The notes under the pieces are model-generated. The model was not told the DNA's origin. It did not search any database and saw only the letters and a program-made list of their open reading frames with translations. A DNA stretch of 24,011 nt, taken from a virus. This document shows, piece by piece, positions 1 through 11,521 of the stretch; position 1 is the stretch's first letter; each line of letters starts with the position of its first letter. The translations under genes and the position numbers were made by a program. The stretch covers positions 1-24,011 of IMG/VR virus record IMGVR_UViG_3300042387_000217. One strand, 5' to 3'.

Positions 1-54
1 CAGCCATTATAACCCCTCCATTAAACCCTCTGTATAAAATCCCCTTTATCGCTC

Positions 55-210
55 GGCTCGCTCAGGCGAGCCTCGCTAACCCCTCGGGTTCGTGGCTGGC
101 AATAAGCCAGCCTACACTATCGTTTCGGCTGTCTCAGCCAACCACTCACATCAAGATAGACTCACTCTGTAGGAGTCGTTCGTCTATATATACTAACCCG
201 TTCAAAACGG
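55..210. other. Array of six short perfect hairpins
   Basis: Six perfect inverted repeats follow one another. They are GGCTCGC/GCGAGCC (55-61 with 66-72), AACCC/GGGTT (78-82 with 86-90), GGCTGGC/GCCAGCC (94-100 with 106-112), GGCTG/CAGCC (127-131 with 135-139), GACTC/GAGTC (159-163 with 173-177) and CCGTT/AACGG (198-202 with 206-210). Most loops are 3 to 5 bases. The stems differ from one another, so this is not a simple sequence repeat. ATAGAC (156-161) could instead pair with GTCTAT (182-187), giving an alternative to the fifth hairpin. Function is unknown: it could be a structured RNA, an untranslated leader, or a single-strand protein-binding or origin region. Confidence 0.6.
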
Positions 211-540: not shown

Positions 541-551
541 GTTTGTGTCGG
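541..551 (+). repeat. 11-mer directional repeat, copy 1 (GTTTGTGTCGG)
   Basis: Exact copy of the 11-mer, upstream of the first gene and of its promoter. It is one of seven same-strand copies in the window (see 1473, 1499, 1509, 1579, 6252 and 11309). Confidence 0.75.
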
Positions 552-607
552 GAGACTATCTGCTCAGGGGGGGCTGGCTGGCTGAGCGTATTTTGAGCGT
601 GGGATCT

Positions 608-2320: not shown

Positions 2321-3772
2321 ATGACGATAACCGCAGAAGATGTAGTCACCAGTAATGCATGGGGCTACCTTCACAATGCAAGATGTCTCAACTGTCGCAC
2401 CTTTCAAGAGATATGGGTGCTATCAGCCTTGCAGACTCCAGAAGGGTACTGCGTGAACTGCCAGATGGGGGCACTGCGTGATGTGCAACGCTACTCAGAT
2501 AATGTCCTCACTGAGGAGGCTCTAGTAGCACTCAGGGATAGCCGTCCTCGTCCAACCGAGGATACCTGCTACTCATGCGAGGGGATATCTGATCTCATCC
2601 CTTCGTTGGATGGCTCAGGTAATGAAGTGCAGAGCCACGATAACAATGAGTGTTCTCGCTCATGTGATCGTTGCGACACTCAATATGCGCGCTATAACTG
2701 GCGCGTAAACTCCTTCTATAGTGGCGATCTAGTGGTAGTGAACTTCGAGAAGATATTCGGAGATGAAGTCTGCCCTAAGTGCCAGAAGGAAATCTATGAG
2801 GATAATGGTGGAGAAGATAACTTCTTCCACTGCTCATGTTGCGAGAGTATCGAACTCATGGATGATAGCGGTTGGTTCAACGGCTCTCGCTATTGTGAGT
2901 CATGTATAGATAACAACGTCTATACATGTGATGAGTGCGGTCAGCAATACTGGGATGGTGACGGGCATTACTGTCCAGATGAGGATTCAAGTCACCTCAT
3001 CAACTCCTACTCGTACAAGCCACGTCCGTACTTCTTTGGCACTGCTACCTATCACATGGGGTTCGAGTTAGAAGTCGAGTCTGACGGCAACTCAATAAGA
3101 GATGCAGCAGAAGTCGTGACCAATGCCCTTGGTGAGCGTATCTATCTGAAAGAGGATGGCTCTCTCAGTCAAGGCTTCGAGATCGTCACTCATCCTCACT
3201 CGCTTGAGGAATACCAAGCCAACTTCGACTGGGAGGCACTTACCTCACTGCGTAGGCTGGGCTTTCGTTCATGGGATACCAGTACATGCGGTCTGCATGT
3301 TCATGTCTCACGTTCTGCGTTTGGAAATCCAAACACTAGACGAGATATCGTCAAGGTTCAGGCTCATGAGTTACGCTTCATGAAACTGATCTACGACAAT
3401 GATCGCCAGATCAGTAGGCTGGCAGGTCGTAAGTCCACCTATGCAACCTTCGAGGATAAGGGTCACCTAGTCCAGAAGGTTAAGTATGGACATCAAGAGA
3501 ATGGTCGCTATTCGGCTATCAACTCAGAGAACTCTGAGACACTTGAGGTTCGAGTGTTCAGAGGATCACTCAAGCCTGCACGCGTACTCATGGCACTAGA
3601 ACTTGTCCAGTGTGCCGTAGAATATACGCGTGGCTTACATGTGAACGCCAGTAACAAGGCTCTCTCATGGATGATGTTCACTCGGTATGTCGTAGACAAT
3701 GCCTCAACCTATCCAAATCTATTTGCGGCTATGGAAAAATCTTTCATGTCCGATTCAGTCAATGAGTCCTAA
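2321..3772 (+). CDS. Amidoligase-like protein with N-terminal zinc-ribbon array, 483 aa
   Basis: The C-terminal half matches the amidoligase (COOH-NH2 ligase type, Amidoligase_2) pattern: GFELEVE at 247-253, EDGSL at 278-282, GFEIVTHP at 285-292, CGLHVHVSR at 323-331, and RYSAIN plus TLEVRVFRGSL at 396-417. That family forms amide bonds between a carboxyl and an amine using ATP, often on peptides or cell-wall-like substrates. The N-terminal 220 residues hold 19 cysteines, mostly as CxxC pairs (22/25, 44/47, 83/86, 115/118, 151/154, 171/174, 192/195, 203/206), which suggests stacked zinc ribbons for binding a protein or nucleic acid. AAAGGA (2308-2313) sets the start at 2321. The next gene is a class II glutamine amidotransferase, the partner known for several amidoligase systems. 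Residues 333-338 are encoded by a copy of the palindrome. The family call comes from motifs recognised by eye; the substrate is unknown. Confidence 0.75.
   Translation: MTITAEDVVTSNAWGYLHNARCLNCRTFQEIWVLSALQTPEGYCVNCQMGALRDVQRYSDNVLTEEALVALRDSRPRPTEDTCYSCEGISDLIPSLDGSGNEVQSHDNNECSRSCDRCDTQYARYNWRVNSFYSGDLVVVNFEKIFGDEVCPKCQKEIYEDNGGEDNFFHCSCCESIELMDDSGWFNGSRYCESCIDNNVYTCDECGQQYWDGDGHYCPDEDSSHLINSYSYKPRPYFFGTATYHMGFELEVESDGNSIRDAAEVVTNALGERIYLKEDGSLSQGFEIVTHPHSLEEYQANFDWEALTSLRRLGFRSWDTSTCGLHVHVSRSAFGNPNTRRDIVKVQAHELRFMKLIYDNDRQISRLAGRKSTYATFEDKGHLVQKVKYGHQENGRYSAINSENSETLEVRVFRGSLKPARVLMALELVQCAVEYTRGLHVNASNKALSWMMFTRYVVDNASTYPNLFAAMEKSFMSDSVNES
3319..3334 (+). repeat. 16-bp palindrome, copy 5 (AAAT centre), inside coding sequence
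   Basis: GTTTGGAAATCCAAAC, the reverse complement of the ATTT form, inside the amidoligase-like gene, encoding A-F-G-N-P-N. It is the only copy well inside a gene, just after the CGLHVHVSR motif. Confidence 0.85.
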
Positions 3773-3774
3773 TC

Positions 3775-3790
3775 GTTTGGAATTCCAAAC
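3775..3790 (+). repeat. 16-bp palindrome, copy 6 (perfect, AATT centre)
   Basis: GTTTGGAATTCCAAAC is a perfect palindrome, two bases after the amidoligase-like stop codon and 17 bases before the amidotransferase ATG. Confidence 0.85.
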
Positions 3791-3807
3791 AGAAATGAGT
3801 ATATGAA

Positions 3808-4653
3808 ATGTGTATGTTATGTGTGATTCCGCCAAATGTAATTCCATCACGAGAGAAGTTGGAAAACTCTGCTCTCAACAATCCTCATGGCTTCGGCTTC
3901 GCTATCGTAATTCCTAGCGAGAATCGTATCCATGTAGAACGCACCATGAACGCTGATACATCCATCAAGCGATTCCTCGAAATGCGTGGCAAGTATCCAG
4001 AAGGTTATGCCATGTGGCATGCACGATTCGCCACTCATGGTTCTCAGACTGTCGAGAACTGCCATCCATTCCAAGTAGGCGTAGGTAACAACCTTACTTA
4101 TCTTGCACACAATGGCATCCTGCCAATCGTTGAGCCTCAAGGTGATGATCGTAGCGATACGCGTATCTTTGCTGAGGATCTACTACCTGCAATCGGTGGG
4201 GTTACTGCCCTAGATAACCCACAAGTGTCCAACCTCATTGAGGATTTCACTAGCGGTTCCAAGGTATGTATTCTCACGATAGATCCACGCGCTGAGTATC
4301 AGTGCTATCTATACCATGCTGAGAAGGGTAAGAAGGATGAGTCTGGCGTGTGGTGGTCTAACGACTCCTGCTATCTCGATACTTATTCTCGCAAGTGGAC
4401 ATCCACCAACCCTTTAGACTTTGGGCTAGGTTTCGGCGGTTATTCCACTAACGAAGAAGTCAAGTGGCGTGAGTGCGAGGTCTGTGAGACCTATGTAGAT
4501 GAGATGATGATCGAGTCATGGGATGATAACTACTGCATGGCTTGTGGCTCATGCTATGACTGCAAGGCGTATCTCACCAACTGCCTATGCTACAAGGGCA
4601 AAGATCAGACATGGGCTGGTCTAGGTAAAGAAGGTGGGTGGGCTCTATCATGA
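3808..4653 (+). CDS. Class II glutamine amidotransferase-like protein (Ntn hydrolase), 281 aa
   Basis: The protein starts M-C-M-L-C, so removal of Met exposes Cys2, the nucleophile of class II glutaminase domains. Supporting motifs are WHARFATHG at 70-78, NCHPF at 84-88, LAHNG at 99-103 and DDRSDT at 113-118, in the order of the GATase_2 fold. These domains release ammonia from glutamine or cleave related amides. After residue 220 comes a Cys-rich tail (C223, 226, 243, 246, 249, 252, 259, 261), a likely double zinc ribbon echoing that of the preceding amidoligase-like protein. There is no synthetase domain of its own, so it probably works with that neighbour. The ribosome binding site is weak. 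ATG at 3808 is preferred over 3814 because it puts Cys at position 2. The stop overlaps the next ATG. Confidence 0.8.
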   Translation: MCMLCVIPPNVIPSREKLENSALNNPHGFGFAIVIPSENRIHVERTMNADTSIKRFLEMRGKYPEGYAMWHARFATHGSQTVENCHPFQVGVGNNLTYLAHNGILPIVEPQGDDRSDTRIFAEDLLPAIGGVTALDNPQVSNLIEDFTSGSKVCILTIDPRAEYQCYLYHAEKGKKDESGVWWSNDSCYLDTYSRKWTSTNPLDFGLGFGGYSTNEEVKWRECEVCETYVDEMMIESWDDNYCMACGSCYDCKAYLTNCLCYKGKDQTWAGLGKEGGWALS

Positions 4654-5533: not shown

Positions 5534-5547
5534 AGGTGATGGCTGGC

Positions 5548-5563
5548 GTTTGGAAATCCAAAC
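5548..5563 (+). repeat. 16-bp palindrome, copy 7 (AAAT centre)
   Basis: GTTTGGAAATCCAAAC in the short gap between the membrane peptide gene (stop 5520) and the 5593 gene, followed by ATGAAAGGA as at copies 3 and 4. Confidence 0.85.
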
Positions 5564-5592
5564 ACTTGCCATCCTTCATGAAAGGAAAGATC

Positions 5593-6022: not shown

Positions 6023-6024
6023 CT

Positions 6025-6040
6025 GTTTGGAAATCCAAAC
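6025..6040 (+). repeat. 16-bp palindrome, copy 8 (AAAT centre)
   Basis: GTTTGGAAATCCAAAC squeezed between the last rightward stop codon (6020-6022) and the terminator stem (6043). It has no gene to control downstream on the + strand, which argues against a plain promoter-operator role for every copy. Confidence 0.85.
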
Positions 6041-6042
6041 AC

Positions 6043-6075
6043 GCCCCTCACCCTTAACTGGGTGGGGGGCTTTTT
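6043..6075 (+). terminator. Intrinsic terminator between convergent operons
   Basis: GCCCCTCACCC (6043-6053) pairs with GGGTGGGGGGC (6060-6070) with one G-T pair and a TTAACT loop, followed by five T. It ends the rightward operon. On the other strand the stem is followed by GTGTTTGG, so leftward termination would be weaker. Confidence 0.9.
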
Positions 6076-10733: not shown

Positions 10734-11521
10734 TGTACCCGTTCAGGTATATCTGAGACATCCATAAATTCGGGATTGAACTGCAACCAAAAAGCCGTAT
10801 CCCCAGTTGGATCTGCCTTACCATAGCGGTTCTTAACGGGCGCTACCGCGAGGTAGCCTGGTGCGTTAGTTCCCACTGTACAGATAAGTGCAGGCAACTG
10901 CGCCACCATGCCCTGCAAAGCAGAGCGAGGTTGGCACGGGTTCCCCATATACGACTCTTTGGTATGATGCAGTATCAATACCGCAGCGTTGGTATCTCTT
11001 GCGAGATATTTCAACTCTTTGATTGTGGAACGCATGTTAGCAAACTCTTCTCCCCCGTCATTGGAGATATCCATAAGGTTATCAACAACTATGAGAGTCG
11101 GCGAACAGCCCCACAATTCCTCGAATGCTTCTACCTCTTGATCGAGATCTGCCAGCGTAGGTGCTGACTCAAACGACCAGAAGATATGCCCCGAGGAATC
11201 ATTAATTGTTTTACGACTACCCTCAATATCTTCGTTGAGCATGTGCTCAGCATCAGACTGGGACTTGCTGGTAATCATAGATAGCAGACGCATAGCCATT
11301 GTGTGAGCGTTTGTGTCGGCTGATACATACAAGGTAGGAACTTTAGCCCGTAGCGCAATAGCCAAAGCCAGTGTCGACTTACCAGCACCAGGAGTGCCAG
11401 CAATCATCGAAACTTCGGATCGGCGAATAACTACTTTGTTGGCATCAAACGTGCGGAACACTGATGGTAATGGTTCACCACCGATGTCCTTTCCACCAAC
11501 TGCACGGGCTAGGGTTCTCAT
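10730..11521 (-). CDS. DnaB/RecA-like replicative ATPase, 263 aa
   Basis: Walker A GTPGAGKST (42-50), a Walker B-like LIVVDNL (143-149), HHTK (185-188) and a late Lys/Arg-rich segment KNRYGK (230-235) match the RecA-like motor core of DnaB-type helicases and KaiC/RadA-like ATPases. There is no DnaB N-terminal domain, as is usual in the short actinophage proteins annotated as DnaB-like helicases. With the primase pair downstream, it probably unwinds the phage replication fork. The start at 11521 is three bases after the previous stop. An 11-mer repeat copy (11309-11319) lies in the gene and encodes the stretch A-D-T-N-A. Confidence 0.82.
   Translation of the reverse strand: MRTLARAVGGKDIGGEPLPSVFRTFDANKVVIRRSEVSMIAGTPGAGKSTLALAIALRAKVPTLYVSADTNAHTMAMRLLSMITSKSQSDAEHMLNEDIEGSRKTINDSSGHIFWSFESAPTLADLDQEVEAFEELWGCSPTLIVVDNLMDISNDGGEEFANMRSTIKELKYLARDTNAAVLILHHTKESYMGNPCQPRSALQGMVAQLPALICTVGTNAPGYLAVAPVKNRYGKADPTGDTAFWLQFNPEFMDVSDIPERVQ
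11309..11319 (+). repeat. 11-mer directional repeat, copy 7 (GTTTGTGTCGG), inside a gene
   Basis: Exact copy inside the helicase-like gene, again on the + strand although the gene is read leftward. It is isolated from the left-arm cluster by about 5 kb, so it could be chance. Confidence 0.5.

Follow-up and report, generated by a model that had tools for sequence, protein, structure and literature searches.

An intergenic stretch with consecutive short, perfect hairpins of unrelated sequence raises the question of whether folding itself is selected there and, if so, whether the folded molecule is RNA or DNA and what it serves. The stretch lies near the left edge of the DNA analysed in this study (the window), a 24-kb fragment (24,011 nucleotides) from virus record IMGVR_UViG_3300042387_000217, which belongs to a tailed phage genome of ~41-42 kb in full. 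The window encodes WhiB, a sigma-like factor, DnaB, a split DnaG-type primase, a RusA-type resolvase and a Cas4/RecB-type exonuclease. In addition, amidoligase-like and class II glutamine amidotransferase-like genes lie adjacent to each other at 2321-4650, a possible pair for peptide or cell-wall modification. The gene for the terminase large subunit, terL, begins at the left edge and exits the window leftward; its full length (624 aa) was read from relatives whose contigs reach further left. A rightward gene starts near 723, which places the hairpins 40-200 bases before terL, in the intergenic region from which the two genes diverge. The named relatives of this terL are the Streptomyces Beephvirinae, and the nearest are OX376640 and OX376641, the Planktophila phages E7 and F5, which were isolated on a 'Ca. 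Nanopelagicales' host (PMC10202952). We infer that the host of the window phage is likewise a freshwater actinobacterium.

Six perfect stems had been predicted, and all of them are present in the window (55-72, 78-90, 94-112, 127-139, 159-163/173-177 and 198-202/206-210). RNA folding of the stretch from 55 to 210 gave -54.1 kcal/mol (z -4.98), with 0 of 200 shuffles as good, and DNA folding gave z values of -5.08 and -5.18 on its two strands. The stems were compared first in ~45 aligned relatives and then in 119 distinct regions from related contigs. The proposal that selection acts on structure was strongly upheld by compensating changes for the stems at 55-72 and 94-112 and for the outer stem 156-161/182-187, and the covariation check showed that the stem at 127-139 is retained in some lineages only. 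In contrast, the stems at 78-90 and 198-210 and the inner stem at 159-177 were broken or replaced in relatives without compensation, an outcome that the original prediction itself had named as speaking against selection. The proposed switch of the 156-187 segment between two pairings fared no better: both pairings exist in the window, but the inner one is not conserved. Judged by this comparison, half of the six-stem list and the switch are local coincidences. Moreover, the array continues past 210, with an invariant CGTTC/GAACG repeat at 199-221 and two further variable, covarying hairpins, here called X and T. Five hairpins are conserved over diverged relatives, in the same order and position. 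The elements of the region are as follows:

5-7, minus strand: terL start codon, assigned by homology with an ORF of contig L014 (4257-6131, minus strand; 624 aa; Terminase_6C).
13-19: terL ribosome-binding site, GGAGGGG.
49-78, minus strand: hairpin A, 5'-TAGYGA-[stem 55-61/66-72]-GARCGA-3', with GGGG runs on both flanks (79-83 and 41-44); 45-55 distinct stems, practically all Watson-Crick.
94-112, minus strand: hairpin P3, 7 bp with loop TTNNT; covarying stems GGCTGGC, GGATGGC, GGCGGGC, GGCAGCC, GATTGGC and others.
127-139, minus strand: hairpin P4, 5 bp; its presence in some lineages only rests on the alignment and a stem scan.
156-187, minus strand: hairpin B, in plus-strand coordinates [GTCTAT 182-187]-GARCG (177-181)-N10-AGYGA (162-166)-[ATAGAC 156-161].
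186-195, minus strand: TAGTATATAT, near-invariant in the alignment and a candidate -10 region of a putative terL promoter.
199-221: invariant inverted repeat CGTTC-N13-GAACG, which includes most of the sixth predicted stem.
237-252: putative CRP/GlxR-like site, the palindrome TGTGA-N6-TCACT, kept in most relatives.
About 318-343: hairpin X, 5-7 bp with mostly 3-nt loops; degenerate in the clade of the window, with 62 distinct stems among relatives.
352-366: hairpin T, GTCGC/GCGAC, with a conserved CCCCAGT after it on the minus strand; 52 distinct stems with 281 Watson-Crick and 2 A.C pairs.
541-561, minus strand: conserved GCAGATAGTC-NCCC-RACACAAAC, a probable genome-end site.
606-626, 1435-1459, 1677-1697, 2283-2303, 3317-3337, 3773-3793, 5546-5566 and 6023-6043: copies of the palindrome GTTTGGAWWTCCAAAC, repeated across the rightward (early) gene block and probably an operator of a phage regulator.

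The CRP/GlxR-like site lies upstream of the candidate terL promoter, and two similar sites occur in the Beephvirinae phage WRightOn, which suggests possible control of late transcription by a host regulator of the CRP family. A pairing of AGTGT with GCACT near 314-348 was also considered and was dropped, as it is broken in several lineages.

Hairpins A and B carry one and the same module, AGYGA/GARCG, on the terL-sense (minus) strand, with the order of its two strands swapped: A reads TAGYGA-stem-GARCGA, and B reads stem-GARCG-N10-AGYGA-stem. The degenerate positions covary, and this covariation falls outside the perfect stems. The Y-R pair of hairpin A is C-G in 42 and T-A in 13 of 55 distinct sequences, and the R-Y pair of hairpin B is G-C in 13 and A-T in 10 of 23 distinct variants, with no mismatched combination in either hairpin; altogether 78 of 78 agree, never with T.G or C.A. 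Once paired, the module strands would give a G-C pair, the Y-R pair and potential tandem sheared G.A mismatches of the PyGAPu type, which are stable in both DNA and RNA, whereas the same positions on the opposite strand would form unstable T.C mismatches. This difference suggests that it is the terL-sense strand that folds. The module has a limited range. In phages E7 (L094 2940-3160) and F5 (L224 1740-1960), the GTTCGG...TTTGAACGGGTTA element is retained and perfect hairpins of 8 and 9 bp precede terL, but AGYGA/GARCG is absent, and GARCG is not conserved in Beephvirinae.

RNA helices that change in sequence normally do so via G-U pairs, so the wobble pairs of the array were counted. Among 222 distinct stems, 1393 of 1427 pairs were Watson-Crick, with 9 G.T (0.6%), 16 A.C and 9 other pairs, several of these exceptions being wrongly chosen hairpins; only 39-70% of pairs formed when the arms were shuffled. 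Terminator-like hairpins of the same contigs, scored in the same way as a control, contained 85 G.T and 8 A.C in 763 pairs. When more contigs were included and only loop-proximal pairs were counted, the terminators held 41 G.T and 6 A.C in 515 (P about 1e-16, to be taken as indicative only because related sequences share ancestry). On the transcribed strand of terminators G.T exceeds A.C and makes up 8-12% of pairs, whereas no such excess was found in the array on either strand; unrestricted hairpin counts over the whole region, with chance hairpins mixed in, were symmetrical (113 G.T and 90 A.C). Furthermore, RNAalifold showed that the variable pairs of hairpins A and B change on both sides together, with no one-sided changes, and the outer stem column of hairpin B contains 21 G-C, 21 A-T and 3 T-A pairs and zero G-T. 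The near absence of G.T pairs despite freely varying stems indicates that what is selected is folded DNA and not folded RNA.

This result bears directly on the option of a structured RNA or leader, which the original prediction had offered and which was our first choice until the wobble-pair test led us to drop it. According to this option, the array is the 5' leader of a terL-first late operon and controls antitermination, translation or stability. Hairpins A, P3, P4 and B do lie between the conserved TATATAT and the terL ribosome-binding site, the tandem G.A motifs are stable in RNA too, and the RNA fold scores well against shuffles (z -4.98). The array did not display, however, the covariation through G-U intermediates on one strand that is expected of a leader. 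Its G.T content is far below that of the terminators of the same phages, with no excess over A.C on either strand, and hairpins X and T, which fall outside such a leader, have the same pairing pattern. Moreover, a tRNA search found none and Rfam 15 gave zero matches in the window at the gathering threshold, in agreement with the earlier remark that no tRNA or known riboswitch form is apparent. An RNA leader is, on balance, clearly unlikely.

Pairing at the level of DNA could also arise without selection, if template-switch mutation at inverted repeats kept the palindromes perfect around ordinary promoter or operator sequences. Double changes without intermediates are an expected trace of such a process, and so are loop inversions, in which the loop is reverse-complemented on identical arms; 10 of these were found where 4.2 were expected (maximum 9 in 1000 shuffles). 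The excess gives modest support to strand switching at DNA hairpins, which is a DNA-level event. Mutation as the whole explanation is nevertheless very unlikely, given that the five hairpins hold their order and position across diverged relatives, that AGYGA/GARCG covaries outside the perfect stems and that hairpins of this type are 2-3 times commoner in the array region than elsewhere in the genomes.

The location of the genome end is relevant to the function of the array. In six Beephvirinae records, a direct terminal repeat of 253-266 bp lies before terL (the 396-bp end repeat of Abafar was left out, as it disagrees with the others). The right boundary of the repeat, marked here by ^, is always GGGGGAGTG^AGTCC (AGTG^AGTCC); the left one reads ACA, ACT or ATA^GTC, with ATA^GTCCC in Dennebes. 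In the window family, GCAGATAGTC-NCCC-RACACAAAC is found upstream of the CGTTC...GAACGGG anchor, at a distance of about 240-350 nt, and its GATA^GTC resembles the left repeat boundary of Dennebes. CACAAAC, which corresponds to 547/548 of the window, is the exact starting point of nine contigs from different lineages, one of them 40.8 kb long (Poisson about 2e-17, with independence assumed), and two contigs start at GTC; another, L138, terminates shortly after hairpin A. Contig ends scatter over about 900 nt upstream of the anchor, and most of these breaks may be assembly effects, so that weight was given only to the exact shared start, which might itself have an assembly cause. Taken together, these data suggest, indirectly, a physical genome end near 547-557. 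A short element, GTTTGTGTCGG (CCGACACAAAC on the minus strand), is repeated at 536-551, 1468-1483, 1494-1519 and 11304-11319, and one of its copies coincides with the shared contig start.

The packaging signal and the single-strand initiation site, which were also among the functions first suggested, fit better than RNA because the array sits between the probable genome end and terL. The best explanation, held tentatively and with a little under half of our confidence behind it, is that the array is a cis-acting folded-DNA site between the probable left virion genome end (about 547-557) and terL, used for genome-end processing or packaging. The array lies directly upstream of terL in all relatives and so adjoins the terminase gene, as a packaging site is expected to do; this position, the conservation, the DNA-type pairing and the shared module are what the comparison establishes, and a function in packaging is the interpretation proposed for them. 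In such a mechanism, the terL-sense strand would become single-stranded or be extruded during concatemer replication or end maturation and would fold into the hairpin array, whose A and B modules could then serve as recognition sites for the machinery of packaging or end processing, most likely the terminase itself, possibly with the phage RusA resolvase or primase-helicase as helpers. By analogy with the right repeat boundary of Beephvirinae, AGTG^AGTCC, the AGYG^AG of modules A and B may be a cleavage site, and perhaps the other boundary in the window family; the likeness may be coincidence, since the Beephvirinae boundary lies upstream of the promoter-like TATATATA and A and B lie downstream. 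Against the packaging function it counts that A, P3, P4 and B would also fall within the terL mRNA leader, that the module is missing from the E7 hairpins and that its GARCG half is not conserved in Beephvirinae. A more specific proposal, which we consider unlikely, is that the terminase or end-maturation machine reads the shape of single-stranded hairpins with tandem sheared G.A (AGYGA/GARCG) and not a fixed double-stranded sequence, in which case the array would represent a new class of folded-DNA element.

The main rival of the packaging site is a replication initiation site, at which the folded, single-stranded terL-sense strand would load the phage primase-helicase or the host primosome. 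The hairpins are formed at the DNA level with loops of mostly 3-5 nt, the phage has genes for a split DnaG-type primase, DnaB and RusA, and the array is found where leftward and rightward genes diverge, all of which would suit an origin. On the other hand, the GC skew of two near-complete genomes has no clear origin signature or skew switch, and the gene adjoining the array is terL, not one for a replication protein. Initiation of replication is accordingly regarded as possible rather than probable.

Several known systems resemble the packaging site proposed here. The Beephvirinae (WRightOn, FlowerPower, Dennebes and others) share a homologous terL, the genome plan and the AGTGAG string, and have the same order before terL, namely CRP-like sites, TATATATA, perfect variable hairpins and terL; their left end, A^GTCC, is comparable to GATA^GTC of the window family. 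Unlike the window family, they have hairpins of other number and sequence and lack the AGYGA/GARCG module, and their repeat boundary lies upstream of the promoter-like site, apart from the hairpins. Concatemer processing of the T7/T3 type involves hairpin intermediates and palindromes near the terminal repeat at the packaging end, a likeness in position, but in the window family the short hairpins form an array and share a G.A module, and there is no sign of covalently closed hairpin ends. Single-strand initiation sites and G4-type origins also consist of short hairpins that work on single-stranded DNA, and they differ from the array in sequence and context. The promoters of the phage N4 virion RNA polymerase, with 5-7 bp DNA stems and 3-nt loops near genome ends, are similar in stem and loop size and in nearness to the genome end, whereas the loops and stems of the array have no fixed consensus; PHROGs and Pfam searches with proteins of the window, which covers 24 kb of the ~41-42 kb genome, revealed no gene for a virion RNA polymerase. 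The conserved core had zero matches in 84,980 bacterial and archaeal genomes, and hence gave no prophage or host clue there, and blastn of the region against named phages also gave zero matches. Searches of openly accessible papers on T7 hairpin ends and folded DNA gave nothing decisive. Functional DNA hairpins are already known from N4 promoters, single-strand origins and attC sites; the searchable literature yielded no account of a comparable array upstream of terL.

In conclusion, compensatory change is usually read as proof of RNA structure, but in this array, without wobble pairs, it points to a selected DNA structure, for which more than 100 relatives are on hand for testing. Counting wobble pairs, with terminators from the same genomes as the control, is a cheap general discriminator of DNA-level from RNA-level structure. 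Should the array function in packaging or end formation, it would be a case of single-stranded DNA recognised by its shape at the end of a phage genome, in a phage family that is relevant to the abundant freshwater Nanopelagicales.
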